From positions 9,460,501 through 9,524,500 of the forward strand of contig NC_089731.1 in NCBI RefSeq assembly GCF_035083965.1: a stretch of DNA of 64,000 nt, in the 5' to 3' direction. This document shows, one piece after another, positions 28,501 to 55,000 of the stretch. The translations under genes and the position numbers were made by a program. The notes under the pieces are model-generated. The model was not told where the DNA came from, did no database searches, and saw nothing but the letters and a program-made list of their open reading frames with translations. The stretch comes from Branchiostoma lanceolatum (taxonomy: Eukaryota > Chordata > Leptocardii > Amphioxiformes > Branchiostomatidae). The first letter of the stretch is position 1. The number at the start of each line of letters is the position of its first letter.

Positions 28501-28505
28501 TATGT

Positions 28506-28511: not shown

Positions 28512-29033
28512 CCAGTACTGTGCTACAATGTCAAGAATGACATGGTTTTTCTCTTCTGAACTTGGAGCAAACTTGTCATCCATATCATTATGTGTGAAAA
28601 ATAAGAATTACTCTTAGCTCTTAGAAAAGAATAATGCTAATTTCAGAAAATAGATATGGTAGATATAATCATGCAGAGATAAAAATTGCTCACATTCAAT
28701 TCCCATACAAGCAACATCAACTTATACACATGCATAAATTGTAATCGCACTGGAAAGAAGAAAAATGTATACATGTTGTACAGTTGTACATACACTTTGA
28801 TACAGGAAATACATGATGATAAGCACAACAACAAGAAGTAACTGATCAAAACCGTACATCAAGGCATAGCATTCATGTACCTTTCCAAAAACACTTTCTT
28901 TCTTGCTGAACTGTTGGCTCCCAGTATAATTTAACCACCATTGTTAACATTGAAAGGTTCCATCTCTATATCAGTGACATGTTTACATGGTTATGTTGGT
29001 AAAAAGATAAGCATTCCTGTCCATGCACTACTG

Positions 29034-32000
29034 TCATAGGTAAAGGGAGATTTTCTTTGTGATGGTCTTCCTACACATGGGGCAGTGTTTGAGTGTACGG
29101 GAGCACTGTTCACACGTTGCGTGGCCGCACAGGAACGCCACGTTACGCTTCCGTTCCAGGCAGATCATGCAGAGCGCCGATTCCTCCATCTCCCGTACTT
29201 TTCGCTCCAATTCGACGACCTTCTCTGGGAGGATGTTTCTGGTTGGTTGAACTTCTACTGGTTGACCATCTGCAAAGATGAAACATAAGGTAATCAACAA
29301 CTTCTGGAATAAAGTACAATAAAATGAATCTTCTAATAGATATTACTGAATACCTGCAATGATTACAGTTCAACTTGACTTGACAATTTTCATTGAACTT
29401 GAAGTGACAAATTTTACTCATGGGAAGAGACCTTGGGATATATCACATGTAAAAGTGTACATGCATCAATGAAAAGTGATGAGTGTTACACACTATTGTA
29501 TAAATATTTTCCTCAAGAAATACACAGTAAGTGATTGTCTTTTTTTCCTGACTCAACCAGGGTTCAGAACTTGGATGTTACAGTTGACTTCCTTACCTAT
29601 TTTGACCTTCCTGGTGATGGGTTGTTGGCACTTGATGCACTTCTTCATCCTGGTAGAACACTCTGGATGTGACAAACACATAAACATTTGTTACACTATA
29701 ATGTTTGTTCATAGTCATATCAACAATAAGCTACTTAACTTTAAATAATCTCTTAAAAATCAGCATTTTTTGTTCAGGATAACCGACTAATGTCAGTTTC
29801 TCCGTAATTAATTGTCTTCTATTTTTTTTATAATATAATATTTCAAAATATGTTGCTGAGATGTCACCATGACAGGGACTAAGCAATATTGTGCTGAAAG
29901 ATTTTTGTGAAAAATTCCCTAGAGGAAAGTTTAGAAAAAAGGCACCGCAAATGCTTCACATATCATATTTTTCAAAAGTGATACCCCCAATGTACCAATC
30001 TTTATCCAGGTGTAGTTTCATCATTCTTTAATGAATATCGGCTACCTGGATGTATAACCTTCATCAGCTTGCTATGCACTGGTAGGTTTTGATATTCCCT
30101 TACCTACACAAACAATGGTGTGATTACAAGGCTCAAACTTGACATTGGCCATGTTATCATCACACACTATACACTCTGTACAATCCTCTTCTGCATCTGG
30201 AGGACTGCGATCTCTGGGGCCCTGGTTGGAGGGACCTGGTCTCGTTCCGTCAGCCTGGCTCCGTGAGCTTTTGGCTTCCATGTCCCTATTAACATGAATA
30301 ATTCAGTCAATCAAAACTTTACATGGTTGGCTCTGCAAACCACACAGACCCTACTTATTTCAACCTAGGACACAACAGATAGAATACTGCAAATCTTGAA
30401 ATGTTTGTTTGCAGTGGTTTTATCTTCACGGTTTTCACAGACACCTCTCCACCATGACTTCATGACATTGCAACTATGCATGAATCCAATGTATTACACT
30501 GTACTACAGAATTTAAAACACTGTGCAGACCTTTTTCCCCCTTCTATTGTGAAATTAAGTCCCCACGAGAATAGATAAAGTTACAGTAACAATTAACTAC
30601 TTGTAAATTTCACCCAACAAAAAAAAACTGCTAGAAATCCTGACCTCCTGGCACTGGCGAACTGTTGGATGAGCTCTTTAATTCTTGGGTCTGTGACGAG
30701 GTCCATGGGTGTCTGGCCTCGCTGGTTGGCAGCGTTCAGGTTGGCTCCTTCCTGTACCAGGAAACAGGCAATGGCCGCTCCAGCATTCCCTCCAGTGTCT
30801 CCAATGCCCATAGAGGAGTGGATCTGTATCATGCAAACATTTGATGGCCTTTATTAGAACACATATGGACAGATCATGCAGTCCAGCTTTAGCCACAACT
30901 TGTGCATTTAGATAAACAATTTTTGAAAAGGTTCCTGTTCTGTGACAGTGCAGGATATTTTTTTCTAATTATCAAGATGCATTGCTAACCGAATGTAAAG
31001 GTCCATTGAGTGAGGGTAGTAGTATATAGTAACAGACATAAAGAACAAAAATCAACAGCATTTGTTAGAGGTATATAGGCTAAGCAAGGTCAGCTGGGTA
31101 GGGTAGTGTCTGTTGCCATAGCAAAGCAAAAACAGTTATGTACATGTAACAGCTATCAGAGATGCAGGACCTATACAGTAGGTGTGAAAAGTTGAGTAAT
31201 GCAATGTAAGTTATAACCAGCTGCTGCCAGGTACTGTGTAATGCCTATCACCTTCTCCTAAATTGGAGTTCTTGCTTTTAGTTAAATTTCATAATTCTAC
31301 CAGTGTTGTGTAAAGGTTAAGTAGTTGTAGATTAACTCGAAATCTAGGTAAAAAAACAGCAAATAGCCACCAATGCAGACCCAAAGTCAACATACACAAC
31401 AAACTTAACAGAGAACAACAGGCAATGGAATACAGGGGGGAACCAGGATGCATGGCAAGAGAGGAAAATGCTATGGACACCTGTTTGTTCATGTTGGCTA
31501 GCTGTTTGACCACAGAGTCCCAGATATACTGGGCCATACCACTCAGGGGCTCCTGGAAGGGGAGGTACGCTAAGAGCTTCTTGGACGGAAGGGAATAGGT
31601 CTGGATAAGGAAGGCAATGGTGGAGAAAAGAGAGACATTACACATGGAGGAGGTGTAGAAAATAGAGACGTCACATATGAAGATGGCAAAGGAAACAAAA
31701 ACTTCACAAATAGCGGAAACTGTACCAGTTTGATGCTTGAACTTCTAGAATGACACAAAGTGGGAATGACATAAACATCTTTCAGAGTTGAATAAAGCTA
31801 AGAAAATTCAATTTCCTACACATTTGCTAGGATTACATTTCCAGGACTGGACCTCTACAAGGTTTCCTTGCAGAATGTAATATTCAAATTTCATGTGCTA
31901 CATGGTACATGGTGATATGCTTACCTGAAAGTGTCCTTCCAAAATTTAATTTCAATTTCAATGTGACAGATATTTCTTCACCTCTAAAGCAATAGTGAAA

Positions 32001-35000
32001 CACATTCCAATTGAGACTTTTTCAGCAAAAACAAATTGTACAGATACAAAAACTGTCTGCAAGAAGTGGACAAAGATCTGTGGAAGCAGACGTGTACACT
32101 ATGGCAACAGGTGCTCACACTTGCGACTTGCGGTGAGTTGGTGAGGTTGGTGTTGTCGGACTGCCTCATGAGCGCCAGGTGCAGGCAGGTGTCGCCCTCC
32201 TCATCCTCCATGTTGACGTTGGCGTTGCGTGAGACCAGCAGCTCGATGACGGAGGTGTGGCCCTGGCTCACGGCCAGGAGCAGCGGGGTCTGGTGCCGGT
32301 TGTTCAGGATGTTCACCTCACAATGGCCCTAGAAATGTGGGGGAAAAATAGAGAAGTGAGCAAAATTAAAAAGGTAGGTAGGTAAAGGCAGTCCCAGAGC
32401 CTTTTTGAGGCTGTAGGGGCAGTGGGTTGTTGTCCACTGCATCTAAGGCTCGGTATTGAAGGTGGAACCCATCCCTCTACTTCCACCGCCTTTTACCTCT
32501 CCAACCAGGTACCCATTTTTACATTTGAGTGTAGCAAGCAAAGTCCTGTTAAGTGCCTTTCCGAACATTGGTGGCATGTCAGGGGATTTGAACCCAGGAC
32601 CCCTGGATTTTGGGGCAATTACTATTACACCAACACAATGGCACAACACAAGCAAAACTGCTGACAAAAAAACATATTGCATCCACTCCCATGACACCGT
32701 GGCAGGATGGTTATACACAAATGGGGGTTGTACTGTAGGATGTGTGAGTCTTCTTTTAGAGCAATGTGTACATGTGTGCCCCTAGCAACTAACAAGGGAA
32801 CTGCAAGGACTGGTCTCTGTGAATGCTAAAGACTACCCATGCCCAGCATAACAAATGATTGATTAGTAGATTGCTCGAGAAGAGGCAGACAAGCAAGCAA
32901 GCAAGAACCAACCAGGCAACAAGGGAACATAATCAACCCTCTAGAAGGTAATAAGAAGTTGCCCACCTGTGTAATTAACACATCAGACACCTCCTTGTGA
33001 CCGTTAAGAGCAGCCAGGTGCAGCGCTGAGTACCCATCATCCTTCCTCTCATCAACCAGCTGTGGGCAGATGGCCAGGATCTTCTCTGCAGCACTGTGGA
33101 CAAAGGTAGAGATAGGACAAATGGTAAAGTTAGGTACAACAGCACATCACAGGAAAGTAAGCATTAAAGGTTGTGTTCACATGATATATAAGGTTAATAA
33201 CACGTATATAGGTTCATATTTGTGTTGAAAGAGAGATCATATGCAACAGCCGTTACACTGACTTTGACCAAAGAGGACGAAAGAGACTCCATAGCTATAA
33301 AAGATTTTAATAACAGGCTAAATACAGTACATTGTGTATATTCATTATGTTCTGGGAATGTGCTAGGTACGTACGGGTTTGGCTTACTAAGTATATGCAT
33401 GAAAAGCTAAACAATTCTATGGATGAATTGCTATGGAGACTACAGATTTCATGTTAGATACAAAAAAACAAACCGATAGACAGTTTTCTACCGTGGTAAC
33501 TTTTCAACAGTTCATGACCTCTTCTATCAATTTGAGATTCTTTTGTATACAGTTAATGGAGACTTTTCAATCTGTAGTATTATTGCTTAGCAAGATACAC
33601 GTATTGCTGTGTATTGCTGCCCATCCATCACAACAAGAACATCTTTTTGCCTAGTAACGAAGATAAATTAAGTAATGTTTGATGAATCATACTCACTACT
33701 TATTGCCCTTCAGGGAGGCGTGGTGCAGTGGGTTGAACCCGCGGTTGTTCCGCAGCTGGAGGTCAAGAGTAGGGACTGCCAGCAGCATGTCTAAAATATC
33801 CCTGTTGTCCTTGGCAATGGCATCATGTAGAGCTGTGTCCCCATAAGAATCCTAACAACAGAGAATTTCAACAACTCAACTAAGGCCTGCAATGTACAAT
33901 ATGAGCAATCGCAATGATGTCACGGTGATGCAGTGGCAAGCAAAAATCAGGTGGAAAGCAAAAGACTGATTAATGATTAGATTTGCTAATTTAGATATCA
34001 ATCAGTAATCTGATCTGCTAATGTCATTTTGCCTACCAGTCCTCGAATACCCTGGATGTAAACAAGAAAAGCAATTGCTTGTAATACGTTGTATTGCAAT
34101 TGATGCCTGTTTGACGACAAATCATTCTTAATCTTTGGCATGTTTGACCCACAAGCCACCTCAGATCATGGGACCAATATCTATTGGTAAGTCATCTGAA
34201 GAGGCCATACATGTAGGTGGGGCTTAAATTTTGAAAGTGACAGTTTTATGGTGTTGGATCAAACGTTTTAACTTCAATGAAAGTAGATATGGTATCAAAC
34301 TTTCTACTCAACATTAGACCAATGATTTCTGAATCTAAGTCATGAGATGCTCCTTTTCATCCACACTCCATGAAGCAATCTTTTGTCCCAAATTCTATTC
34401 CTTACTTAATCATGTAACAACACACAACAGTGTTGTACCTGTAACAACACACAAGTGTTGTACATGTAACACAACAGTGTTGTACATGTAACAGCACACA
34501 ACAGTGCTGTACCTGCAACAACACACAAGTGTTGTACCTGTAACAATACACAACAGTGTTATACCTGTAACAACACACAGCAGTGCTGTACCTGTGTGTT
34601 GATGTTACAGTTGTGGTTGAGCAGCACCCTGACACAGCGGACATGGCTCTTGTTGACGGCCACGTGCAGCGCTCCACAGCCGCTGTTATTGGTGACGTTC
34701 ACGTTAGCACCCTTCGTCAGCAGCAGCTCCGCTATCTCCGGCTGGTTTCTATGGCAACAGAAATCAACAAGTTCAAGTGTGACGCATGCTGTTCTTATTA
34801 CAAACCTAACAAATCATTTGTATACAGTAACTGTAAACCTTGAAAATATCGTGGTAGTCTAATTTTATTTTGGCCTTTTTTGCAGTCACCTCTCCACTCC
34901 AAATTCATGACACAGCAAATGTCTCATTTGTGTGAATACTGTACAACAGAATTATTTTAACCTGCAAATTTAAAACACCACTAAATTTGAACCTCAGATC

Positions 35001-38000
35001 ATACTGATGTACAAGTACAACCAATGTACAGTTTGAAAAATGGTTATATCAACTTACCCAAAAGCAGAATAGTGCAAGGCTGTGTCACCATCATCGTCCT
35101 AGTCAACAACAAGACATACATGAAGTTGGACTCCCCGGTACAACATCATGATAAACTGTAAAAAAATCTTAATACGTAACATATTCTACATTCTTCACCT
35201 ATTGCTACATACAACTTCAAAATGAATGCACAGAGTGCAGACCTCTGTATTTATTTATGAAAGAAAATTTAGTTGTTATTTTGTCTCAGATAGATACATG
35301 CGAATTTGTTGGACAGGTCTGACCATGCTACATGCCCAGGGTGCAAACATGACTAAAAATAATTTTATTGCACTGACCTTGACTTCCAGACTGGCTCCAG
35401 CTAGAATTAAGACCTTGACCATGTCCAGATAGCCTTGATGGCAGGACACCTGAAGTGCAGTCTTCCCAGAACTCTTTGTATCCACCTGCAGAAATAAGAT
35501 GACATCATCTTTGACTTTGGAAAAAGAATACACCAAAATACTATGAGTGAAAGTCTCCAACAACTTAATGATGCTGTAGCAGACAAACTTCTACCAAAAG
35601 AATAAAAAATACCAGAAGGTCAAATATTCAAGGATACAAGTAACATGAAGATTGCTTGGACGATTTAACACTTCTTCAAGCGCTCTAACATATCATCTAC
35701 ATTTGTATAGATTTTACAGACAAACCAAAAATGGATGTGATTCTAGAATCAAAAAATCTACAGACATGCTGTACATGTTTCCTTCAACTTTTATCCATTG
35801 ATTGAATTTGAACAACTCTTGATGCAATGTATCGCCTACCCTGTCAGGGTGTTTGGTGACCAGCTCATGAACCTTCCCAAGATGCCCCTGGGCTGCTTCG
35901 CTGACCAGTTTGTCCGGAGTGTTGTTGTCCACCTGGATGGCTCTTATCTGTTCCAGCAGGGACAGGACAGTGTCTGAACAAAACAAAACAAAACAAAAAA
36001 CAAATTTGTAAATCTTTTTAAACTGGCCTGGTCATTCCCAATGCACAGTAACTTGCATGGGAAGCAGGTCTGGATTCCAATTGTCCTCCCAAAATCATTT
36101 AAGATTTCCTCCCTTGGTTAGTAAAAGATATGAAATATGAAAATCAATTCATAGAATTTTTAGCTCTCCTGTATTCAAACATATGGACTATGCACGCAAA
36201 CATGTACAAGTACAAATTTGGTCAGTCTACATTATTCTACATGTATGTCAGCAGTACAATCTGCTCTAAGGTAGAAACTTGTGTTAATTTCTCCCCTGGA
36301 ACTTACTACTCTGGTGGCGTTCCCTGTCCGGTGCCATGGTGTTGTTGGTGTCGATGGTAGATCGGGGTACCATGGTGATGTTGGCGGGGTTGAGCGTCCA
36401 TGTCTGACCATTCACCAGCACTCTCAGGTCTCCATCATGGTACACCTTCTGTACAGTACCCAGCTGGCCTAGGGTCTACAACAAGGCAAAATGAAAGGCT
36501 CATATTTGCAAGAAAATGCAACTCTTTAACTTTGCTAAAGCAGAACTTATTTCTTTATTTATTTTCTGCATTAGACTTGCCTTTCTTTCATCACTGTACA
36601 TGTATGCGACTATAATAAGTTCTTTATTCACAACCAGGGAGTGACATAACAGACAATGTTTCAGTGATCGTCTGTCACCTTCCTCAGAGCAATAATAACT
36701 GGTTCTAGTTTGCACTGCAAGGTGTCACTGCTGCAGTCTTAAAAATGAGGCCCCAAACGTGACTGAGTTTATATCCCCCTCATCATGTCTGCTGTAATGC
36801 AACTCCTTGGTTGTGAATAATGAACTTTGATATTCATTCATTTATAACCCTGATGAAATTATTCATGGCTGTACGTATATTCACAGATGTTTGTCACTGT
36901 TTTTAAAAATCTTTCTCCTATATGGGCCAAGTACATGAACCTGACATCAGAAGAACAATACACAGGGGAATAAATGAAACATACTGATTTCATTGCATCT
37001 GTCCACTCCCCATGTCCAGCCTGCAGTCTCCTCACTTCCTCCATCTTGTCTGAAATCCTGACTGTATCACCCACTGAAAACATGTCCACCTGAGGAGTAA
37101 ACATTGTAAAAAGGCTTCACCGATGATTCTCAAAATAGGTTATACAACTTTATACCAAGTGTTACAATTGCAGCTTATATGCAAATATACACCAGCCAAC
37201 AACATACATTACTTATGAAGAGAATAAAACAAATTCTATATCTTCCTGTTCTTAAGTGTGTTCTTTTCCTTAATTCATCACCTACCTTTGTGAGAGCAGC
37301 TGGGTGGAAGGTCCATCTGTTGGAACTGCCATCATACTGGACCCTGATGTCCCCCCTCTCAGTCACACGGTGGACTGTTCCAGCTTTTCCTATAAACTGT
37401 GTACAGCATTGGAGAGTAATGACATATGCATGGTTATAAGACCCTGTTAAATTAAACTGATCAAGCTACTGAAACAGCAAGAACATTTGCTGCCCTATGT
37501 GCCACCATAGCCATTACAAGGGTCTAAACAAATGAACGAATAAGACATATCAACAATTAGATTCAAAAGTGACAAAAGTACATAAACAGATTTTTTTCTT
37601 AAAAGTCATCCGATTTTAGTCCAATGTAAACAAGTCAGATGGCAAAATCTTTAAGGATTTCATATAACCTTATCATATCAATAAGCTGAAGGGGGTCAGC
37701 ATAATTTCTAACACCACCTTTCCTTTGAATTCTCAACATCGATCTAAATTTTTACCTCCACCATTTTGGGGTTCCAGCCACCATGCCCCTCTTGTAACTG
37801 TTTGAGAATGTCCACGTCAAGCTGAACCTTGACCTTGTCTCCGACTTTGAAGTTTTGTCCTGCTGCACTACTGACCGGCTCTATGTGGCTGACAATGGTC
37901 TGGTGATGGTGATAACCTAGTGAGAGGTGTTGAAGATTTGGATAATGATCAACGACATTTCTTTCATTTTTGTTACACATGTCTATTCCCCAGTGCTCAA

Positions 38001-39734
38001 GCACTGCATCAAGATTGAATGTAGAACTTGGGAAAAAGAGTACTTGACATTTAAAATAAAACTACCGAATTCAAAAGCTCCAGCCTCCTTAACAAGCTTC
38101 TATGCAGTGATATTTACTTCACCGCATACAGCAGTGATAACAAATAGCTTCACCTCCGAAGCATCGCCAAAACCAGAAAATCTACCAACCTAGTTTAGGC
38201 AGATGATCTTTGTAGTAGTACCCTCCTGTTGCATCCTGGGTGTACTTGACATCGACCTTGCCCTTGTGACCCAGCCTGTACACGTTGGTTGCCCCTGACG
38301 ACCAGGTGACCTGAACCACGCTGTTTCCTGATTCGTTGTCCCAACCGCGGACCTCGATAACCTTCCCAGTGTTCCCTGGGCCTCCTATAATCAAAACCAC
38401 AACAGAGGTCGTTTGTCAAATATGTCTGAGATCGATCCCTTTATTGGATAGAGATTAATTTCTGACATTTAACATTCCTCTCTCCACAACAAGAATTGAA
38501 CCGAGGTAGTGCATTCTTGGGATGTGCAAACTTGTAATCAGTTTGAAAAATGAACAGCAAGATGGAGTTACCTATCTCATAATAGTACTTATGAGTTATG
38601 ACGACTACAGAAAAATTCAATTTTTAGTCAATCACTTGCTAGATATATATATGACTTACCTTCTGAAGCCAAAAAACTTGAAAATTCATTTGTAACATTT
38701 TTAGTTACCTTATTCATAAACACTGAAACAAATTTGTTTAAAAAACATCCTCCTGACTATGGCTACGAAGAGAAAGCCTCACCATCCTGGTTGCCCCAGT
38801 CCCAGTCTGGCCCCCTGACAACACGTGCACCAGGGAAGATCCCTCTGGACTGCACCTTCACAGAGCCATGTCGTTTTGGCACTCTTACCCTGTGGAAAGG
38901 AAAAGGTTAATTACTTTTGTATGTCAATAATGTGAAAATTCTTCTTTGCATGTGCATATGAAAACAGAAATCAGGGACAGTACTGCAGACAATAACAACA
39001 ATATGGTACTTAATACTATTTTATTACATATCCTCTCCCCCACATAAGTGCTACATGGGTATGTTCAATGTTAATATAAAATTCATATACTAGTATTCTT
39101 TATTGTTAATATTATCATTCTATAAGATTCAAGCAGCAAGCTTAAGCACCATAATGGTGACTTTTGGTGCAGCTTCCCTCACTAAATACTTTCTATCAAT
39201 AAGTATGTCATGATAATACTAAGTAATAGCTAATTAAATTATACCTTAACTTATGCATCAAATTTATCACAGTGAGTCCTTACCATATATTCTACACATG
39301 TCACGCACATTTTGTTTATAGCAAGGACAGACAACTTACCCCGCTGACTGTGCAGTCTCATATCTTTCAAACTGGTGGGTGGTGACATGTTTGTCATTCA
39401 TGTAACAAACTGTGCACAAGTCAAAGTCGTGGCACTCCGTACATTTCCAGCGGATACCGCGTATCCCGTGCTGTTTGCAGTCGTCGCAGATGATATTCGG
39501 GTGCTTCACGCCAATGGGGGCATTGTCGTACACCAAAAGGTCGTAAGACCCTTGGTAGCCAACACGATAGTTTGTACGCATTCCGGAGTCCCACTGGACG
39601 ACGGCGGTTTTATCGGGAGACGCCGTGCTCCCCGGTCTGCCAATTTCGACCACGGTTCCGATGTGGCCTTCGCCATCGTCCTGGTTCGCCCACTTCCAAT
39701 CAGGGCCTCGAATGACGCGTAAACCAACCTCCAT
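29034..39734 (-). CDS. MIB2: MIB2, mind bomb E3 ubiquitin ligase 2
   Basis: Nineteen coding exons in transcript order: 39734-39340, 38889-38783, 38384-38190, 37916-37756, 37396-37286, 37089-36985, 36475-36307, 35973-35840, 35485-35378, 35098-35058, 34748-34592, 33851-33697, 33093-32967, 32328-32119, 31552-31481, 30823-30645, 30285-30104, 29662-29597, 29269-29034. They total 2910 bases, 969 residues, all phases matching. Domains: MIB/HERC2 (about 4-70), ZZ zinc finger (Cys83, 86, 98, 101, 107, 110, His116, 120), second MIB/HERC2 (about 150-232), MIB repeats (about 245-400), ankyrin repeats (about 430-810), RING (847-881) and C-terminal RING (Cys925, 928, 939, His941, Cys944, 947, 954, 957). 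Two RINGs and phrases such as VKHPNIICD and GHKGKVDVK point to MIB2, not MIB1. The family ubiquitinates Delta/Jagged to promote their endocytosis in Notch signalling. Exon 15 has an in-frame alternative acceptor. Confidence 0.96.
32420..32645 (-). repeat. tRNA-derived SINE, copy 2, in MIB2 intron 13
   Basis: Same family as 17986-18166: B box ggttcaaatcc on the minus strand (plus-strand 32584-32594) and the tacccatttttacatttgag body. This copy also keeps the far part (tggaacccatccctctac...ccaccgcc). It is inserted in the sense orientation of MIB2. Confidence 0.8.
34411..34591 (-). repeat. Minisatellite at the MIB2 exon 11 donor site
   Basis: Seven units of 22-28 bases, each close to ctgtaacaacacacaacagtg on the plus strand. 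On the gene strand most unit borders read ACAG|GTAC or ACAG|GTAT, and the last border is the real exon 11 donor (CACACAG|GTACAG). The array therefore consists of copies of an exon-intron junction. Confidence 0.85.
35977..36001. repeat. (aaaac)n microsatellite in MIB2 intron 7
   Basis: About five aaaac units lie immediately upstream of the exon 8 acceptor. On the gene strand they form its T-rich polypyrimidine tract. Confidence 0.85.
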
Positions 39735-40666
39735 CGTCTTAGTCCTGTCAAGAAATAGAGCCGCCAGGTCAATTTACACAAAATGACAGATTTGATTGAT
39801 TCCACACCTCTCTATTTAATGCTAGGGCAGCTTGATAACTGGATTAACTGTATTGGACTAAGTGATGGTGGAATAATTCAATCAAGAACACTCTGTAACT
39901 GAATGGCCTTTTGACTTTGCATCATGACATGTATTTCTAGAGCATTGGTACAGGCAGGTACTTTGCAGATGCAGGGCTCTAGTAATAGTTTCTGTTTTCT
40001 TTTCTTTTTTGAAATATTGATTCCCAAAAGCTTACATATATGTTTTTTAGCCTGCAAATTTGTTAGATTTATATTTTATACTTATATTTTTTCTGTAATT
40101 TCATATATTTTTCTGTAAATGGCATGTTACATGCAAGTATTTCCAGTCCTGAAATGGTTGCTTATTCATGATAAAATATCACAGCATTGCTGTATCTTGT
40201 TTCTTTCTTACTCCTCTCTTCAATGGGTGTGGACCACTTCGATTTCCTTCAAAAGGACATACGACCGTTCCATGCCATTTCTGTGAATCACTGACTCTAA
40301 TGAAGCCAAACTGAGTACCAACCTCCTCATCTTACAATTTGAAATAGACTACAACAGATCATAAATCATACTGTTGCAAAATATTCCTTTATCTCTGCAA
40401 AGATTCGGAACATATTGCAAACAACAACAAATCATGCAGCAAACATAAGTGGAAAGATTTGATGTGTCACGAATTAAAAGGTTTAGTTCATGTGAAAATT
40501 GGAAGCGTCATCCGAAAACGAGACTCTTTTAATTGTAATGATAAAGCAAAGGTTTAATACCAATATTCCATGCTTGAAATGTCTAGCAAAAAGCTCTATC
40601 GATTTATCAAGAACTGCATAAGAAAGGGATCAAACGACCTACTTTGATGTCTTCCCAAAAATGATA

Positions 40667-40855
40667 TTACGAACCTTTAACCTCAAGAAACGAGTCAGCA
40701 TTTTTCAGAAACTGTGCCCTGAAGTTCAGCAGCGTTTCTAGGTGCTTGACGTGGCCTAGAACGTCGAGAATTGCGGACGAAAACGTGCAATACTTCCAAG
40801 AACCGTGTAGGACGACATTTCTCGTTTCCTGGCCAGTCGTTATGGACGAGTCCAT
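40667..40855 (-). other. Possible 5' exon or upstream ORF of MIB2
   Basis: An ATG-initiated frame of 62 codons on the minus strand, 0.9 kb upstream of MIB2 exon 1. It is helix-like (HVKHLETLLNFRAQFLKNAD) and ends at a TAA just after an AAAG|GTTCGT donor-like site. MIB2 exon 1 has its acceptor at 39750 and ten bases before its ATG. Splicing here would join out of frame, so this is either a non-translated leader, an upstream ORF or an exon of another gene. I recognise no family. Confidence 0.3.
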
Positions 40856-40860
40856 TCGTC

Positions 40861-43094
40861 AACAATTATAGGTAAATCTTCCCAAATATTGTTGTGTGAA
40901 ATCTAAGAAGTGGTCAGAACTACTATCAATATATTAACATGCTTCCCTTAATTTCTACCATAAAAAAATGAACAATATTTCATAGTCTTAACGCATCCAT
41001 CTTCGGTTGAATTATAATGGTTTCCTCCTTTGCTTTCAGTGGAGGATTCCCCCAAATTATTACGCATGCGCTTAGATCATAGGACGTGATTCCGTAAATA
41101 CACATATCTATTGTCGTAAATACACATATGTACGATTGTGAATACACTTGTTGAAACTGTATACTGTATTGGTAAAGAGATTACGTAAAACTGTTCAAGC
41201 TCCATTATATATAGTCTAGCGGTCTATGGAGAACATGTTTTATATTTTCAACCAGGTGAGGTAACGTAATACACCTGCAGAGCTCATATGATCATAACCA
41301 GAGCATAACAGTCAATTATTTGGCGCCTTCATGAAAAATTCTCATCAAAAATGTTTTTTTTTTCCAATTCCTAAGAGGTTGAAATGCCCATGCATCATGA
41401 CATTTCAACTTTTGGTGCAAAAGTTACTTCAAAGCATCAATTTGGATAATTGACTTTTCTTTCGCCTACTTGTGTTGTCTCGACATGCTTCTAAATAATC
41501 CACATGATTAACTTTTATCATTACTTTTTAAAACGAAAGTTGAATTGATCCATTGTTGGGGACAATGTTACATAGGATTTGAGGATGTTCTGTTAATCAG
41601 TTTCACGCCTTTTTACATTGTACTCATCAAGGAGATTCTATTGTTCGTATCCTTTAGTTAAAAAGTGTTCGATTGAATCATTTTGTCCTTTGATGAAACT
41701 GCGCAAGGCAAAACTTGGGAATATAAAAGAAAGGGATCCTTATACTCAAGGTCATTCTGGGATAAACTACAGGAAAGAGCTCAGGGCCGGACTGAAACCT
41801 GGGACAACTTTATTTCGATCAAGTATCGGGTGAAATTGACCACCCCACAAATGACGTTTTATGTTACGACCGTAAAATAATTTTTGAAAAGATGATTTTT
41901 TATAAGAAATAAAGCAATCCAACGGTGTCCTTATTGTGAGATTCATAGAAATCATTTTATTTGATTATTTACTTTGCTGTGATAACGCGACCTTGAAATA
42001 TTCGGTCCCTTGTTGTTGTTATTAATCCAAGCAGATGTGTGCGGTTTGGCTTTATTTTGTTCGTCTTCTCGCTCATTGCGTTGCGTTTCATTGAACGCTC
42101 CTACGTGAGAGAAAAACATCAAAAATACACTGAAACAGCGAACAGGAGCATACATCTCTCAATGGAGCCTACTTGTTGTGGTCTGGATGTTTTTATAGTT
42201 GTCCAATATTCTATATGCGCCAAATATGGGCATACAGAAGCCCCGCTCTCCAGCAGGAATGTTTCCAGTGGCTGTCGGCAGTCACGTGATGACCTCTTGA
42301 TTGACACCCCTGCGGCATTATTAGGCAAATGAAGTACCGGCTGTTCCGTTCATCACTGCTACCCGCTCGGGAAACCATACAATTGCTGAGATTTGTCTGG
42401 AGTTGTCTATCGTCAGAGGGCAACGCAAAAGGGTGACAATCAAACTGATCGTAACTAGACATAGCACTCAAATCATAGTTAAAAATCAAGAATAAGAAAT
42501 AACAGTAAGAGATAGTTTTATGTAACGTTACTTTGAATTCTGAACCTTACTTCCACAAGTCACATGTTATTAGAGAAACTCCGTACTGGGATTAAAGTAA
42601 TGAAACACTTGCTGGTACCAGTTTAATGATTAAAAGAATTTCTATTTCTATTCAGAACCTCTGCCCTATTGCGGGACTGATCTCCAGATTATGGATAGAC
42701 ATATAAAACTCAATGCGCACTTGATGTATGAAAACGGTAGTATGAAAACGGACCCGTTCGCTTTCAAATATAAAGACAATTTGTTTAAAGACTTCTGATT
42801 AAAAAGACTGTTTTGTTTCACCCAAGGAATCTCGAGGCTCTTGAGATGATCAAGCGTCCAGGAGGTTGTATGTCTTGTGTTGATTTGATGTAATCCGTCC
42901 GTCAAGGAAATGACTAGCCATGTAAGAACGCCTTCCACAGGGGGAAGCGGCCGTGAATGGAACAGCGCAAATAAGTGTCAGAATTACGTCGCCACATTTG
43001 CATATTGGGAATCGGACTGAAGACTGCGGCCATTTCGGGTGCTATTTTGGCCCAATATCCCCTCAGTTTCCCCTCCCTGGTGCCGTCTCCGGCC
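40861..43094. promoter_or_regulatory. Divergent promoter region between MIB2 and dishevelled
   Basis: About 2.2 kb separate the putative MIB2 leader from the dishevelled ATG. Near the dishevelled start the sequence is GC-richer and holds aattacgtcg (CRE-like) at about 42983 and a gcggccatttcggg (YY1-like) word near 43028. The middle part is AT-rich with no gene seen. A shared regulatory region is inferred from geometry only. Confidence 0.4.
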
Positions 43095-46000
43095 ATGGAG
43101 GAGACGAAAATCATTTACCACATCGATGATGAGGACACACCGTACCTAGTGAAGCTCCCAATCCCCGCTGATCGCGTCACACTGGGCGACTTCAAAAATG
43201 TCCTCAACCGGCCCAACTATAAGTTCTTCTTCAAGTCTATGGACGATGATTTTGGGTAAGTTTTTGGGCAGCTAGCCCCTGATTGGCGTGATAACCTTGA
43301 TATTTGCTCATTGTGGTTAAACTTCAGGTGTTTGGTGTGTGGTTTAGAGTCGTTGGGTGGTCGATCGGGGATCTCTAGCCCTCCCCAAGCTTCCCCCACC
43401 CGTCTTGTTCATAGGAAGTTTTCCATTTTGGGCTCGACCTAGCAGCTAGGGATAGCTTGGTTTATTTAGTTTGTAGTTGTGGGATCATGAAAAATTCATG
43501 GCATCTTTCATGCCGTTTCTTTGCTTGAAACTTACGCGATCTCAAGCAGTCATTTGGGGTGCCCACAAGGGTAGATTTACAGTCACATAAACCCTCAGCA
43601 ACTGGCTGTGATTTGAAACAAACGCATGTGTTTCTCCTCGCATCGTTCGTGTCAGACATGCTGCTTTACCAATTCGCAATCGCGCTTGATTGAAAGAGAC
43701 ATATTGGAGATTCTGACCTCCGAAATTAGTCCATTTATCGCCGAGAGCACACTAGAAGTGGTATAAATACAGAGTCGATAATGTGTCTGCGATCTTAGCG
43801 TGGTTCATGGACCACTTGGGGTCAATTTCACACAGGAATGTTGTCCATTTCAAAATGAGGTCGATTTCCTTGCCATGAGAAGCTGTTCCTTGCATAAACA
43901 TTGTGGATTTTGCGAAAAACGTGCTTTAAAAAAGAGCTATTTTCTTACTACACATGATCAGGAGTTAGCTGAAAGCCAATGAGGGATAGATAAGGGACGA
44001 AACGTCCATCGTAGGCAGCAGAAACTGGCTGTACGCGTGGTTGTGTTGATTTGTGGTGATTACTGACCCTTGAATTTTCACTCCCAACACAGACAGCAGC
44101 CATCTTGAATCAGAAATGACCTCGCACGAAAGATCCTTGCAACCTTCCAAGACTTGTTTTTAAAGCCCGGCTTCTTTCGTAACCAAGGCATGTGTTCAGG
44201 ACACAAAATCTTGAACACGTGCCATTTACAATCTTATGAGAATTTGGTTTAGAAAGCATTATTATCCCCCTGGTATTGGTGAAGGCATCAGAGGCTATAT
44301 CCCAAGCCTTTTGTTGAAGTAATGGATATGAGTTCGGGTCTTATGAGTTCAAAGTGAATCAATCATACGTTGGTTAGACTTCTTATGTTGTGTATCAAGA
44401 AAGGGGGAAAGACAAAGCTCAAGACACATTGCAGTCTGGCCGAATTTACATTGCAATGACTTTTCACACAAAAGGAAGCCATAGGCTGATCGATTTGCTG
44501 ATAAATTTGTCACCAAAGAAAAGAGGCATTGTAATTGTACAGATAGATACACTGGCAAAAGTACAAGTATGTGTAAACATCCTTGGTAGAGTGTTTGTGT
44601 GGTCCTGGGTTTGATATACAGGATAATGATGTACAACAGTCTACCAAAGAAGTACATACATATGGAAAATGCATCACAGCTAAGGGTTAAAAGTTAAAAC
44701 AGCTCAATTATTTCACCAGTAGAGTTGAAGTTCAACTTAAGAGTTAGGAGCAGTATGGAGTTCTCATTTATTTGGTCTCTCTTGTTGTGGGACTTATCTA
44801 AACGTTGTAAAACTTTGTGCACCTGCAATATGCACTTTATATGCAAGGACTGAAATTAGAGATGAAAAAATGCATAGAAAAATTAGAAATAGAATTTATA
44901 GATCTAAAGCTGCAATTTATATTTGCAAACAAAACAAAGCTATTGGCCATTACATTGTGATAAACCACCAAATGTCAGGCCTAATCTTTTATAATTTGAT
45001 TTGCAACGAAGATCACTCATCGTTTGAATGTTCCTCTTCTATGTTGGTCAGGCATAGACATGCATCGCAAATTTTCTTGAAAACATTTATCAAACTTCAA
45101 GACAGTCCTTCTACTTAACTGTACTAGTACTGTGACTAAAATTGCAACAGTTTCACTCAACCAAATACAGATCCAAATCTTAGGAATTTTATCAACATGC
45201 ACTTTTCCAGGTAACGATAAATGGTAGTAGTTCATACTTTACAATTGTTTCAATTAATCAACTTTATTGCTCAATATTGTACTGTTTACAACATGTTGCA
45301 GTATAAACTGTACTGTACAACAATGACATACACAGACATATTACATCTTGCTACTCATAAATCCGTCACTTTGTCTTGCATATTTTATTATAGTGGCACC
45401 ATAAAGCGCTATACATTGTCCTAATGTATGTTATAGCGCCTTAAATGTTTGGGAATAGATACACTTCTAAAGTTCTATTTTGAAACAGTATTTTGGTGCT
45501 TTGTTATGATGTTAAGTCCTTCCATTCATTTCCATGTGGCAATTTTTTTAATCATAACACTGGTGTTTGAGCAGAGTGGGAAAATTTTGTTGGGAAGGTT
45601 GGCTTAAATTTCACGTCTCATTCTGCATTCTGATGTTTGTATGCTATGTTTTATGATTTTCCTGGTAAACTGTATATCCATACCCTATTGATAAAGTCAA
45701 ATAAACCATGTTTATTTGTTACTTTGATATTATTTGGATCCACTGTTACTGAATTCTGTATTGACTATTGTTGCCTTGTGTTCTTTCAGGGTCGTTAAAG
45801 AAGAAATAACAGACGAGACAACACGACTACCCTGCTTCAATGGGCGCGTTGTGTCTTGGGTAAGTACCGAGTTCTGAACGAGATACAAATGAAGTACAGA
45901 TCTGGCTTCCCCAGAACTATGTGTATGGCATTTCTCCCCACACAGACAGTTGTCTAGCCAAGCCATAAAAATGTCTCCTCCAGTATCTGTTCTGAATGAG

Positions 46001-49000
46001 ACATAAGTAACTGTCAGGACTGATAAAACACACAGCTCAAAATACCCACCTGCAACCTGCAATTTAGACAAAAGCCTTAATTGCAGGTGACTATTAGAGA
46101 CATGCAATTTGAAGTTCCAGAATGTTAATGCTGGTGTTACTATTTCATTTGTAACAAATTGTTTGAGATGATGATCTCCTCTCCAGAGAATTTTGGTTGT
46201 AAGGGCTTATCGTACATGGAAGCTGATAGTTGATAGTTGTTCAGAAAGAAATGTTTTGGTAAGAGAAGTACCTTCCCAACTTGCTCAGCCATTCCAACAT
46301 TACCAAAAATTTAGTTTTCACCAACTCGTAACATAATCTTCAGGCAATGCAAGTCCAAGTAAGATTTCTTGCATATGTAGTACAGTTCTTGCAGCAATAT
46401 GAGTATCACAAAATATTTTGCCCTCAGAAACAGGATGTAAAAAGCTGTTTTGTGTGGGTGGGGGGAAAAGCCAGACTAGAACTTAAAACTGGTACACCAT
46501 GGTTCAGACTCAACAGTGTTCGATGATACCAATAAACTGAACAGGACCAAACAGCTGTTTCAGAAACTGTGCAGCTATGTACCATAGTCTTTGGGGAAGT
46601 GGTGTGGCGATTCTCAGACAGTGTGGGAAGGGTGTCATGTGACCCTGTTAGCCAATCATCTCCAGGCTTACACAGGCAGCGTAATGACATTTTGGCGTCA
46701 GTCAGTTCATTAAGCCTAGTGTCATATATACTCTGGATTTCTTTTGGCAAGAGTTATTGCTCTGTTTAAGATTCCTAATGAGCTCAAAGCATTTCTGTGG
46801 CTATATACTATGTATAGTCCACTGGGGAAAAAGCACCGTTGACTGCAGATATGCGCTATGCCACTATGAACATAGGGCTTGAATGAGCCTATGATATGTT
46901 AAAGTCTTCAAAGTTCTTATATTTGTTCACAGATCTTTGAGTTTTTACCTTCTTGCTTCTCGTCATGTCCTAAGTATGTTTTAAAGGGCAACATTCAAAC
47001 ATTTAAAAAGCATCGTTGTTCAAGACTGAACTACCAATCGGCTATCGGTAATAAATTTGCCAGTAGCAAAAGATTCACCTGTGCATTGCGCTGAGTAGCT
47101 GGACATAGTTGTTGTACATGACATATAGAAAGACAGGTCGTAGTCTGATTGATATCATGTCAATAGAATATTGCTTGCTTGAAATTTTTACACCAATATC
47201 ATCATTTTGCATGTCTAATTGTAATGAAATTCAGAATGAACATGCTTACCGAGAAGAGAAGGTGTGACCCAGTGTGCTTGGCTAGATTGGCTAGCCGTAG
47301 GGAAGTGGTATTGCACTACTAGGTCACAAAAAAGCGCCATTCTTCGTCGGACTCTGAGGTTCAACCTTGCACTTACTAAGTATTACTACTAGATTAATTT
47401 GATGTGTACGTTTTTACTCCAAGTGACCCAGGAATAATATTATTTATCACCTTATGAGCAAGCTTGCAAGTCAAAGGCATAAATCATTTTGAAGTTATCC
47501 TGATATTGAAAACTGATGAATATGGCACAAAATAGCCACCTTCAATTTGAAATTTGTGGTACTAATTGTAGGTAAAAAAACTCACCAGAAAAGGTATAAT
47601 TCTGAAGGCCCAAATATAGTCCAAGGCTGCTGCTGGTTATGAGTCATCATTTAGTCACATTCCGTCATGCTGACGCTAGTGTTCCTGCAACTTCATTTGT
47701 AACAAAAGATGGCTGTCGTGCTTTCTTTGTACTACTACTACTAGTATTAGCTTTTCCTACAAGGAAGCTGATGTGTCTACATGTTTGCTAACACTTCTAT
47801 TTCCATGTTGGGAAAGCAGGGATACACATCACGGATAGTTGAGAAAATATTTTGCTGAAACAAAGCCCTTCCAATTCCCTCAAATCAATGGCTGATTCCA
47901 TTTATTTTTCTAGTTTACTGCATTCATCTGTCTTTTTTTTTTATCTGTCTGGAAAGATAGACTGGTGATCTTGATATGTATGTTTATGATACGTAAGTAC
48001 ATTATAATTTATGTAATGTTACTATATCAGGGTGCGAAATACTTTTTTGAGCCAGGTTGCCCATGTTGCAACCAAGGGCAAATGCTAGGTTGCACATCCA
48101 AATTTCAGGTTGCTCCAGCAACATTCACCGATTTCTTCAAATCAAGCTCGTATGTAGCGTATAATACTACTAACATTTCAAAATATATATTAGATAGTAT
48201 TGTGTTCCCATTGACCTAACAACATCTTGTTTAGCTGAGGGCAGTGTGTTTTTGTCTTTTTCAGCTCAAATTCCACGATCTATGAAGGGTTTTGGATGGT
48301 TTAAAACGAAAAAGTGTTGATTTCTTTATTTCAATTGAAGATTTACCGAATTTTATGAGAGTGACACTGTGTTTTTGTGAGCTTCCAGGGCTCCGATTGA
48401 AATCTTTGGCTCAAAATATAAGGTTGCACACTGCGCTACCTGGGTTTGGAATTAACTTGCACCAACCGAAATCTTGTTGCACTGTGCAACATGCAACCAG
48501 GTATTTCGCACCCTGTATATATAAGCATACTATATCTGTTCTAATCAATTGATACGAGCAAACTTCAGCTTTCACATATCACTTTGCCACCTGATTATAT
48601 ACATGCGTCAAGTGATTTTTCACAGGAGGAATATTTTTATCAGTTTGTATTTTTTTCTATTTCAATCTCTGTAGCAAGCATTGGCTCCATTAGAAAAACT
48701 TGGTCTCTACAATGTTCCTAGTGCTCAGAACAGACCAACATATAAATCCTGGGATCATTTGTCAGCTCCATATTTGGATGATGTTAGCATAGTCGACTTC
48801 CAAACGCATAATCTGTGTTGTGCATGCTTGTCATGTGAGATATTGCCTTCGGTGGCCCTCGTTTGGAAAACACCACATTTGTACAAAGCAGCTGTAAACT
48901 TCCAGTATTGTTGACAGTTTTACATTATTTTTTGTAGCTTCTCTTGTTTTTGTACATGTGGAAGGGAAAGATGATTTTTTTAGTTTCACGTTGCTTGTGA

Positions 49001-52000
49001 AATTTATAACTGTACTTCACTTTTAATTGTTTGTGATGGGAGCATGGTTTTCACCCGCTGACAGATGGTATTTTCTCAACCATGATATTAAACGTCATAC
49101 AGCAATGTTTTCATGTTATGTTTACAAGTTCAGCAATATTTACATTTGCTGTATTTACATTAAAACATCATGCAGCAATATTTACATATAGTTGCACCAG
49201 GGGTCGTTCCCACCATGTTCTGTGCCATTATGCCCATACATTATAGTGAGATGTTATATTAACATTCCTGCTTCTGTCTTGTAGACTGACTTTTAAGATC
49301 ATGATATCTCCAGACAAAAATAATCCTTGCGGAATTAGTTGTCACCCGCATTATGATATTATAGAAATGTATTTTTATGTTACTAGTACTCACCGAGTGC
49401 TACGCAACAAAATGTAAATAACAGGAATCTCGCAATTTTGACGTTGTGATAGTTGATAAAGATACAAATTATGCATAATGATAAGAGAATGATAAGAAAT
49501 TTACAATCTGTATCTGTGTAGCCAGTATAACTGCCCTTCAGTGTGACACACCAGCTTCGCAGGCACGCATCGTTGCAGCAGTTGGTTGTATTGCACTAAA
49601 TGACCTTGTCCTGTCACACCTAACTTTTACACATCTGATTCCAAGCTTTATCTAGACATACAAAAGTATCTTAAATGTGGTTAAAACCCACTAGTTAATC
49701 CACACACATTAACATTGACAAATGATTTTATTTAAAGAAAATCTGCTGCCCCACAGTAAGAGAAGTTATAACATTTGAGGTGATTTGATACATACAAACC
49801 TGTCCTTATACATTCAGACACCACACATTCACAAGTCTGACTCTGAGCTCTTCTGTCAACCTCGGCCAGAGGACATGCATTTACACGTTAGATCTAAAAT
49901 GCCAACAGAGATCTAGGTGGGATATTTACCCTTAGTATTTGGCTTGTACACTGACTTGGTTTTAAACAGTCTGCCTTTGTCTTGTACTGATAGAAATGGA
50001 CAGCTATTGCTTGTAAATCCTAAGATGTAAGTACCCTTCAATAGATGTATAAGCCTTTCTAATGACAAAAGTTTTGGCAGAGCTTATGCATAGATCAGAG
50101 CATAGACTATTGAACAAGGAACAGAGTGGGAGGGGGGTATAGTAATACAGTAGAAGCTGTGAAGAATAATGATATATGTCTTGTTAAATATTATGTCTGA
50201 ATACTAGTGAATAAGTATATGTAAGATAACTGATAGGAACTGGATATTCTTTTAGACGTGAGTCTTTTAAGGTATCCATGTTAGATTATGTGTAGTGACC
50301 TCTAGTGGCTTATTCTAAAGAATATAAATTCACGGTCTAGAAGTAGGGCCGGAATGTATGATCCTCTGTAGTATGCCAAGGTCCTGTCTACATACAATGC
50401 TCACAGCAACTAGGTTTTGCTTTTGTTTTTTGTTTTTCTGATAGTGCAGTCAACCCAAAGTTAGTCAGCAAACTCTTATATTACATTTGTATCATGTTGG
50501 TACTTTTTTTATTGGAAATAACTTAATTAGTGGTTTAAAAAATGTCATAATCTTGGCCAGTTCCTGGCTGCTATAACTGTCATTAAAACTGATGATATTT
50601 AGTCTATTAGGAGGAAATTCAATCTGAACATAAAACATTGTGTGGTATGCCCCAAATGTGTTCTGAGTTGCATGATGGAACTCTTTCTTGTTAATGATAT
50701 GAGAATCTGTCTCACATACTGTGCTAAGATGTTTGATCTCTGAGCCCCTTGGGTAAAGAAGTCTTTACACCTTAAATTTGAAAGAAGTCATGCTATTTGA
50801 CCCCTCCACGACCTTTCACAGTAGGAATGTTTTGGTAGTGTCAAGATGTAGGGAACTGAGGTTAAAAATAGATGTCCTCATTTACATGGTAAATTTAGTG
50901 TCGAGCTTTAGTTGTTATGACTGTCTTTATACTGTCAGTACATGTAATGCATTAGACATAAAGCATCCTAACTAAAAACCTCTTTTTCTTTTTTTTTTTC
51001 AAATGAAGATATGATTATGTACCAATATGAGCTTGTCTGTTACTCATTAACCAGATAGGCATGTCATTCATAGATAGGGAATAAGTATGTCATGTATATG
51101 TAGGTATGTGCTACCCAGATGTTGTTTGGAAAGTCCATCCTCCCCTACCTTCCTCTCTGGAAGGACGTTCCTTTGAAGTTTCTCCTTCTCCAACATTCCC
51201 CTAATTGAAAGCAGTGGTGAAGTCTTGCTGAGAGTATTTGGTTTACTCATAGATGAAAGAATTTGATGATAAATTTACAAACAAGTAGGTCCTTATGTTT
51301 GATCAATTTATCACAAAAATATAACCATTGCAATGAAACGTGGAACTTGTTGCTGTGTAAAATAATGGGTAGATGTTAGCTGATATTGTTGGATTAAGGA
51401 TACTATTTTCAATACATAGATAATGCAAATAAGTTTGCATATATATGTGAATGCCACAATCTTTTTCATTACGAAAGCATACATGTACCTCAAACAGAAC
51501 TTTTATCATCAAAGCGTACAGAGCAAAGCTGTTTTTTTCCACTAGACATACAAATTAATCATGATGTTGTGTTGTGTTTTGGATGTTATCGAATAATAAG
51601 GAGAAATCTCATAACAAAAAAAGCCCCACCTGTTAAGAAGATTTTGAGATGATAGAATTCCAGATTCTTTAAGAAAAACATACAAGGAATCTAGTTATAC
51701 ATAAAAGGAATGTAGTTTTGTCTAACTCTGGAAACCCAATGCCAGTCCAAATCATACGGTCCATCTCAACGTTACCAAACAAAGACTAAAAGGTGTGTTA
51801 ACAGTTATTACACAAACTCCCCTGGTAACCAATACAAATTGGGTGCTCCATGTCACCCCTAGAGTGGTAAAGGTTAATAAGAAAATGATGACTCTCAACA
51901 GTATCGTGTGATGTTACTACTAGACAACTAACAAATCCAAGGAAATAAGTATTTATCACTTGCCAGTTCCCACAACTTATTAGCCTTTAAGTTTAAGGGG

Positions 52001-55000
52001 ATTGACATTTTTTGTGTGTGACTTGATGATTATTTTTATCTAATGGAATTGTATATTACAATCATGTAGACAGTAGATATCATAAATTATAAAGGCCCAT
52101 AAGCTTTTTCGTAATGACTTTGTACACTCTCCTAGGGTATTTTGTAGTTATAGGAGTTAAGTCATGTTTTAGTGTGTTAGTCTGTATTTGTGTGTGCGTT
52201 TATGGGTATGTGTTTCTGGCCTACTTTGGCCAATAAATTGAGTAAAGGGGGTGAAGTCTGCCATCTCTGATTGTCTTGTTCTCCGTATTTCTGTACAGTT
52301 GGTTCCAGCTGAAGGGACCCTCTCGGACACATCGTCGCAATGTACGGACCCCCAAACAGACCTGCCGCCAGCCTTAGAGAGGACAGGGGGCATCGGGGAC
52401 TCCAGGCCGCCTTCCTTCCAGTATGTCAACTTAAACTTGATTGTTTATTTCATATACGATTAATAAGAAGTATTGGCACCTTTTCAATGGTGAAGTAAAG
52501 TTTCATTTACAAACTCTATAGAATGCCAGCCTGGGAAAGAAAAAGAACAGAACACAAGTGTCATTTTAGAAACATTTCTCTCCGTAATGTTAGAGTTCAT
52601 TGTAGCCATTTTGATTTTAAGTGGGATGTAACAATAGATTGTTCATCATTGAATTCGATAGGTTACTGCTGGGCAAAGCGTCAAGTATCAAGGAAATAAA
52701 TTTGATTTTACAACATTATTTTAACTTTTTTGTCTCCACAGTGCAAACGCAGCAGAAAGCCGGGACAACCTAGACAGAGACACAGAATCTGAATCAGTCC
52801 TCTCACATAGAAGAGGTACGTTGGGTTAGTAGATACTCTTTCTGTTGTCTTCTCTATGCACAAAGTAAGCTGTAGTTGCTCCATGGATAACAACCACTAG
52901 AGGGCCTCGCTGTACTGCCAGATGCTTTGCTGTGTATGTGCAGTGAGGCCTCCTTGTGGATAGTAGAAGAACTGCAGGTAGGTGTTGCATAGTCAGCATC
53001 TCCAGGCTGAAATATGGCAGGGAGTCTATTCAAACTTGTACCATAGGCATCTGCATGTAGGCTTGAAGCTGGTAGCATTTTGGAAAAGTTAGTTGTATCA
53101 ATATGCATTTTGATCGGGAAAGACATTTCAAATTGACTGGTTAAGATCAAGAATGAACTCAGGGCACCTTGCCAAAAAAAGGAGGCTGATAAAGTGAATG
53201 AATGCAAGATGTTCTCCACAAGGTAGCATGGAGGTCATTATGATACCTTGTACTTAACTGTCACTATCTTGTTTCAGATCGTCACCGAAGAAGGGACAGA
53301 CATCACGATGATGGTATGTGCCACAGATACATGAATACCCTACACATTTGTGCACACACCACTCCCTCCACAGTTGGCAAAAACACAGTAATCACACTGA
53401 ACATTTGCTGCTTTCAATTGGACTCTGCCTGTACAGTTAATTCAGGGATTCATTTAGGCTAATTCAAACCACACTCAAACAGCGGTGAGACAATTAGAAG
53501 TTTCAGACATTGTCACGAAAGAGGTAACCCAAGAGTTACTTGTAGGCGTATCCACTCTGTTAGAGGCTGCAGACTGGCCAGAAAACAACCTCAGCCATCA
53601 GAGTGTTTTTTGGCTGTGCGTTATGCGAGCACAGGAGCCATTGTAACCAGGAATCTTCTCTGTGTATACACGCCATGGTTTTGCTGTATCGTGTATGTTA
53701 TGTAATTGTCTGCCAAGTCTCGCGAGCTGACATTTGAATGGTGAACTGCTGCTTGTGAAAACTGCTAAGAGTAAGATATTCGGTGTGACACTTCGTTAAC
53801 AGTGATGGCTTCCAAATTTGAAGGTAAGTCTCAGTAGTATATCAACCTGTTGATAACCTGCAAGTCTTGGCAATAGTGTTATCCTAAAGTAAGCATTTCT
53901 CTTTCCCTTATCTTCAAAGGTAACTAAGTCGTGTTCCCTTGGGCCCATATTGAAATGTTGCAAGTTTCCACAGATGTTTTTTGTCCTGTCTCTTTTTGAT
54001 TATTTTGGCTGTGAGTCAGTGAGGTAAGAATGTGAGAAGTTGTTGGTGGACTGCTGCACTGCCACTAACCTTAATGTCTTCCAGAACCTGGTCGGGAGGG
54101 AGGATTGAGACAATAAATTATGTCGGTCTCCAGAGGTGTTAGAGTTACAGGTTCTTACCTTTATGAGGAACACATGAAGATAACAGCCTTGTGTGTCTCT
54201 TTTTGTGGCGGAAAATTAGGGGAGGGGGGCACGGTGCCAGGTCTTCCATGCCACTGGCCTGTCCTGGCACTATTGTATGCGGTAGTGGAGCATTTATGTC
54301 ATGGTTTGGCTGTAGTCCATGCCTGCACGCACCTGTGTAATTTCCGGGGACTCCAAGACGGCCCATAAGTCTGCTACCTGCAGAGTCCTGTCTGTGTGTG
54401 AGGTCTCATGTCTGGGCTTCATTTAGGGGGAGGGGATTTTTTGTTCTGTCAGACTCAGAGCCACTTCGGTGTAGCATTTCAATCATCTACACAGTCATTT
54501 CCACCTTATATCCATGGTGTATAATCTTGATTGTCGGGTAGTTGTATGTCTAAAGGTAAAGCAGACATTATCAATTGAGGTGAAGCATATTGCTTTTAGT
54601 TTTATTGCTGGTGCAGCATATTGTTGGAGCACTTCATTTAAGTCATCTTGTTATTGCCATTGTCGTCTGTGACAAAGGCAGCCCCAGCACATTAGACTTG
54701 ATGTGTGTAATTAGCCCCAGTGTAAATAAATCTGCCTAAACAAACAGACTGCCTTTGTTCCATTCTACCCAAGCAAGCTTGAAGAAAAAGTTTCGAAATC
54801 TTGCAACCCTGATTTATGATAGTTAGGCCTAGTCTGCTAACGTACCTGCATCAAGGAATGTTGGGTGTATATGTTGCTATAACCAAAGATCGATAGGTAA
54901 AAACACCAGTGAGAAATTTCTCTCTAATCTTCCTGTTATACAGGAACTTTTGTAACCTGATATTTCCCCGACACTAAAAGTGTGTGCACTTTGTTGACCA

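Follow-up and report, generated by a model that had tools for sequence, protein, structure and literature searches.

The region considered here is a stretch of 64,000 nucleotides from the amphioxus Branchiostoma lanceolatum (NCBI RefSeq assembly GCF_035083965.1, contig NC_089731.1, positions 9,460,501 to 9,524,500 of the forward strand). Below it is called the window, and all coordinates are positions within it. Its minus strand carries a gene for an E3 ubiquitin ligase of the MIB2 type, and its plus strand a gene for the Wnt hub dishevelled (DVL). These are ordinary, intact-looking signalling genes encoded divergently side by side. The start codons, read directly, are at 39734 (minus strand, MIB2) and 43095 (plus strand, DVL), 3,361 bases apart. 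A preliminary description of this DNA had named MIB2 and dishevelled as head-to-head neighbours with start codons 3.4 kb apart, and both statements hold: the Pfam domains and the exon joins on opposite strands agree with the arrangement. The outer coordinates given there, 29034 and 53313, are the MIB2 stop codon and the end of the fifth DVL exon. The coding features are as follows.

29034..39734, minus strand: coding part of the MIB2-type E3 ubiquitin ligase gene (Pfam on the reading frames, exon joins, Pfam on the joined protein, PDB match to MIB1)
43095..43255, plus strand: DVL coding exon 1, with the start codon and the first part of the DIX domain (Pfam, PDB match, exon joins)
45790..45859, plus strand: DVL coding exon 2, with the last part of the DIX domain (Pfam, exon joins)
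52299..52420, plus strand: DVL coding exon 3, start of the 'Dishevelled' domain (Pfam, exon joins)
52742..52815, plus strand: DVL coding exon 4 (found by eye in the three-frame translation from its likeness to DVL; in-frame join; the Dishevelled profile runs through it)
53278..53313, plus strand: DVL coding exon 5, 36 bases, arginine-rich (three-frame translation, in-frame join)

The minus-strand frames between 29 and 39.8 kb contain Pfam matches to MIB_HERC2, SH3_15 (the mind bomb repeat), ankyrin and RING domains. Joined, they form a model of 18 exons encoding a complete protein of 933 amino acids, whose sole stop is the terminal one at 29034. In the joined protein two MIB_HERC2 domains flank a ZZ finger (residues 78-121). 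There are also two stretches of SH3_15, ankyrin repeats (Ank families with E-values down to 2.3e-46) and two C-terminal RINGs, matched as two stretches of zf-C3HC4_3. The same set (MIB-HERC2, ZZ, MIB-HERC2, mind bomb repeats, ankyrin repeats, two RINGs) is described for Mib2 of Drosophila and vertebrates, and at the Pfam level the domain make-up shows no visible difference from it, as far as the excerpt of PMC5345843 goes. Drosophila Mib1 has a third RING while Mib2 has two (same excerpt), and thus the presence of two RINGs rather than three points to MIB2. In a search of PDB, the N-terminal 384 residues matched the solved human MIB1 (E 1.2e-120, residues 3-382). Over the N-terminal region, the identity is 149/232 (64%) to an approximate human MIB2 sequence and 120/221 (54%) to an approximate human MIB1 sequence. 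The label of a Notch ligase should be used with care for MIB2, an E3 ligase whose targets are not confined to Notch ligands.

Some details of the MIB2 model depend on how it was built. The introns are GT-AG by construction, as the enumeration was confined to GT and AG sites and to joins that keep the frame open. Junctions 3, 4, 10 and 14 were picked by hand over the top-scoring variants for likeness to MIB proteins, and junction 13 has a score of only -0.1. An extra exon (35098-35058) was inserted at junction 9 following a motif search. The modelled donor of an ankyrin exon at 34592 falls within a minisatellite (34411-34595) whose repeat unit measures about 27, 52 or 74 bases. Past the stop codon, the minus strand carries AATAAA at 28511, 27920, 27421 and 27034.

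On the plus strand, the DIX and 'Dishevelled' domains were matched by Pfam at 43.1-52.4 kb. The first five coding exons of DVL, between 43095 and 53313, share one open frame when joined and encode 154 amino acids. In this joined protein the DIX domain is complete (1-77 of 77, E 8.2e-32) and the 'Dishevelled' basic region PF02377 is covered at positions 1-66 of 160 (E 2.4e-24). Exon 1 alone matched DVL2 and DVL1 in PDB, and Dixin far more weakly. For exons 4 and 5 there are six open combinations; the chosen one has the donors GTACGT and GTATGT. From there to the window end, none of the three plus-strand frames matched the PDZ or DEP domain; a domain divided among small exons can escape such a scan. 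The CpG-poor state defined below runs on past the DVL exons to 64 kb with few short breaks. Presumably, the window ends within the gene, and PDZ and DEP are located past that point.

No further gene recognisable by Pfam lies within 39.7-43.1 kb: the Pfam scans matched MIB2 itself on the minus strand and nothing on the plus strand, where the scan was by alignment and gives families without positions. The tRNA and Rfam scans produced no matches. One trivial explanation of the adjacency would be an artefact of the assembly, in which the junction between MIB2 and DVL is false. However, the window contains no runs of N, and open reading frames start from both start codons. Nor is there a positive sign of an artefact; the GC content between 38.6 and 44.6 kb, which varies from 0.31 to 0.52 when taken in 250-base windows, points neither way. 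We regard a false join as very improbable.

The start codons are not transcription starts, and the value of 3.4 kb is the distance between the start codons. The transcription units may be approached through the CpG content. Indeed, 5-methylcytosine in amphioxus is nearly all in gene bodies and is negatively correlated with CpG density (PMC6292497, in part), and thus CpG borders can reasonably stand in for the limits of transcription units. A two-state hidden Markov model (HMM) of CpG versus TpG/CpA yields CpG-poor segments mainly at 26,920-40,465 and from 44,189 to the window end. Short CpG-rich stretches, several of which are exons, interrupt them. The CpG-rich segments include 40,468-41,249 and 41,598-44,184, which are separated by a brief CpG-poor interval. 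Hence two CpG-poor units flank a CpG-rich gap, as is expected of gene-body methylation in amphioxus (PMC6292497, same part). The corresponding features are listed below.

26920..29033, minus strand: probable 3' untranslated stretch of MIB2, or end of its CpG-poor transcription unit (CpG share 14/357; low segment of the HMM from 26920)
39340..39744, minus strand: MIB2 exon with the start codon (ATG at 39734), preceded by a splice acceptor directly upstream of 39744 (acceptor TTTCTTGACAG, score 4.6)
39745..40465, minus strand: probable first intron of MIB2, in the 5' untranslated region, CpG-poor (CpG share; HMM border 40465/40468)
40468..44184, no strand: CpG-rich gap across the 5' ends of the two genes, which presumably contains their promoters (HMM; break at 41253-41591)
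40993..41071, minus strand: weak candidate promoter of MIB2, a YY1-like word (40993-41003) beside an NRF1-like word (41062-41071), one mismatch in each (pattern scan)

The splice acceptor of MIB2 is situated 10 bases upstream of the ATG, and this implies a non-coding exon further upstream. The 721 bases upstream of the start-codon exon are depleted in CpG, with 5 of the 121 CpG/TpG/CpA sites being CpG; the share is 61/1339 in the MIB2 introns and 93/443 in the rest of the gap (40466-43094). Taken together, the acceptor and the CpG-poor 721 bases indicate that MIB2 probably begins with a non-coding exon, and its transcription probably starts, past 40.47 kb. A search for this 5' exon gave weak donors only (3.4 at 39808, 2.8 at 40643, and four lower ones), and no exon is claimed.

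Promoter-like words near either 5' end are limited to weak matches with one mismatch. The exact patterns of YY1, NRF1, the GC-box, CRE, ETS and the longer Su(H) site are absent from the 3.4 kb gap. In addition to the pair of one-mismatch words at 41.0 kb listed above, there is a YY1-like word on the minus strand near the DVL start (43026-43036, one mismatch). An exact match to the YY1 pattern at 44096 (minus strand) lies inside intron 1 of DVL. The gap also holds TATA, CCAAT and short Su(H)-like words and single TCF or E2F words; these are given no weight as evidence. Repeats in the gap comprise six two-copy families of 17-30 bases and six inverted pairs of 18-22 bases, and no signature of a mobile element was seen among them. 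On the simplest reading, these sequence features suggest two promoters separated by about 2 kb, that of MIB2 near 41.0 kb and that of DVL near 43.0 kb. The separation of the promoters would be overstated by the distance between the start codons.

The preliminary description had also proposed a shared divergent regulatory region. This part found no positive support, as the 5' end of MIB2 is probably well upstream of the ATG and the weak promoter words are about 2 kb apart. A single bidirectional promoter is possible, though no sequence feature unites the two. In that case, the 5' exon of MIB2 would be situated near the start of DVL at about 43.0 kb; both genes would be driven from a single open region, and selection on this region would have kept them side by side. 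Bidirectional promoters in amphioxus involve 25% of neighbouring genes (3,950/15,884), and 372 of these promoters are putatively ancestral, most of which were lost in vertebrates (PMC6292497, in part); the pair considered here resembles them in consisting of divergent neighbouring protein-coding genes. The probable start of MIB2 upstream of its ATG exon agrees with such an arrangement, and the YY1-like word at 43026-43036 reads on the minus strand, that is, in the direction of MIB2. On the other hand, the amphioxus pairs were defined by cap analysis of gene expression (CAGE) and have zero, one or two nucleosomes between the promoters (PMC6292497, same part), whereas the present distance is between start codons only, and the likely gap is far larger unless MIB2 has a long 5' intron. 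No minus-strand donor scoring above 3.4 was found between approximately 39.8 and 42.5 kb, as judged by a crude matrix. The lack of exact YY1 and NRF1 patterns does not favour a common promoter either, and the one-mismatch NRF1-like word at 41.06 kb is far from DVL. A true bidirectional promoter thus seems rather unlikely.

The age of the linkage can be approached by comparison with vertebrates. In human, DVL1 (1,260,521..1,274,358, minus strand) and MIB2 (1,540,747..1,555,848, plus strand) are both in 1p36.33 (PMC3893467, Table 1), which confirms what the preliminary description had said of the human genes. Their 5' ends face each other over 266 kb, and MXRA8 and VWA1 intervene in the same table. 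The same two families are found in one band with DVL1 on the minus strand and MIB2 on the plus strand, 5' ends facing; this human spacing contrasts with the 3.4 kb between the start codons in amphioxus. The divergent orientation is kept and the adjacency is not. In the two-lined caecilian, Tas1r2, whose amphibian flank is MIB2, and Tas1r3, whose flank is DVL1, are both on chromosome 15 (PMC8717283, in part). In the spadefoot toad Tas1r2 and Tas1r3 are about 2 kb apart on one scaffold, the flanks in that species not being among the available rows of the same paper; by analogy, this spacing hints at close linkage of MIB2 and DVL1.

At the scale of whole chromosomes, 17 chordate linkage groups have retained their membership while the gene order was largely scrambled (PMC7269912, in part). 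The MIB2-DVL pair is similar in that amphioxus and vertebrates share the linkage but differ in the order; the linkage groups are whole-chromosome patterns, whereas here there is a single pair. By this comparison, the linkage of MIB2 and DVL is likely of chordate age and would be an ordinary case of the known conservation of chordate linkage. In the main-text passages covered by a literature search, no description of the MIB2-DVL pair in any invertebrate was found; published pair lists may still include it. The available text of PMC13317027 has no occurrence of dishevelled, mib2 or mind bomb, and that of PMC8851819 has none of dishevelled.

The whole can be explained by two ordinary divergent genes with their own promoters in one CpG-rich gap and a linkage of chordate age that was loosened in vertebrates, and this is the explanation that we hold to be probable, with moderate confidence. 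The DVL promoter would lie near 43.0 kb within the CpG-rich gap. MIB2 would start with a non-coding exon past 40.47 kb, perhaps near 41.0 kb, from its own promoter in the same gap. The pair would descend from a chordate-age linkage, as judged from one published table (PMC3893467, in part), and insertions and rearrangements in vertebrates would have loosened it, leaving human DVL1 and MIB2 divergent and 266 kb apart.

Several observations weigh against this explanation. The difference in CpG share between the 721-base stretch and the rest of the gap (Fisher P 2.5e-6) is optimistic, since the border was picked by the HMM on the same data. The one-mismatch promoter words occur elsewhere in the window too, with counts somewhat above chance (2 NRF1-like words at 0.43 expected, 20 YY1-like words at 12 expected), and are weak hints. 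The age of the linkage is based on the human and caecilian positions only. In Xenopus tropicalis DVL1 is on an unplaced scaffold, from which linkage is unreadable (PMC8717283, in part). The immediate neighbours differ in amphibians, where Tas1r2 is flanked by MIB2 and GOLIM4, and Tas1r3 by DVL1 and CPTP, so that MIB2 goes with GOLIM4 and DVL1 with CPTP (same source). The pair was noticed after the fact. A rough hand estimate puts at 2-8% the chance that a gene from the same linkage group is located no more than about 0.3 Mb away from at least one of the three human DVL genes, and a coincidental proximity in human thus keeps a probability of a few per cent. The estimate takes 112 genes in 6.8 Mb (PMC3893467, in part), 17 linkage groups (PMC7269912, in part) and about 20,000 human genes, the upper end corresponding to denser bands.

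These points also bear on the possibility that the adjacency is recent in the amphioxus lineage: the two genes would have shared an ancestral chromosome, an inversion would have joined them, and their proximity in human would be a coincidence within the linkage group. The scrambling of order within linkage groups between amphioxus and other lineages (PMC7269912, in part), the fact that human DVL1 and MIB2 are not adjacent (PMC3893467, in part) and the differing amphibian neighbours (PMC8717283, in part) are all in line with it. However, the human genes, 266 kb apart and likewise divergent, are nearer to each other than is usual for random placement within a linkage group, given the estimate of 2-8%, and less if orientation is considered. 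A recent origin of the adjacency is therefore possible but unlikely.

A stronger version of the conservation argument would be that MIB2-DVL is a pre-vertebrate divergent pair kept by a shared regulatory block that co-tunes the turnover of Notch ligands and Wnt/planar cell polarity (PCP) signalling, and that the pair was split after the vertebrate genome duplications, its orientation surviving in human 1p36.33. DVL proteins interact with NOTCH proteins and repress them (PMC11594159, in part), and thus a functional link is conceivable. Regulation of MIB2 and DVL together through this gap is nevertheless speculative, and we consider the stronger version highly doubtful.

Outside this pair, the window contains several other features. 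A CTHRC1-like gene with a collagen repeat and a CTHRC1_C domain is found at 2526-3795 (plus strand); the distance to the start of DVL is about 39 kb. CTHRC1 is a cofactor of Wnt/PCP signalling, and its nearness to DVL may or may not be due to chance. An open frame of 309 residues at 9777-10703 (plus strand) has one membrane-like hydrophobic stretch by eye and no Pfam family above the cut-off. An exon at 23486-23920 (plus strand) matches an FkbM-type methyltransferase, whose gene would be tail-to-tail with MIB2; open frames at 22.6-26.2 kb resemble the same gene by eye, without a Pfam match. The CpG content falls at 26.92 kb: the half with the CTHRC1 and methyltransferase genes (1-26919) is mostly CpG-rich, and the MIB2 and DVL bodies are CpG-poor, as mosaic gene-body methylation would leave them. 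A 300-base direct duplication at 5010-5743, with copies 99% identical and an inverted repeat between them (73-base arms, 85% complementary), looks like a recent mobile or duplicated element. Positions 1-605 are occupied by about 12 copies of a CpG-rich 49-base tandem repeat.

At present, the neighbourhood of MIB2 and dishevelled in amphioxus mainly means a probable conserved linkage of the expected kind. If the two genes prove to be adjacent in outgroups as well, this would be another dated chordate or bilaterian gene pair that was loosened by the vertebrate duplications, with two developmental pathways involved.

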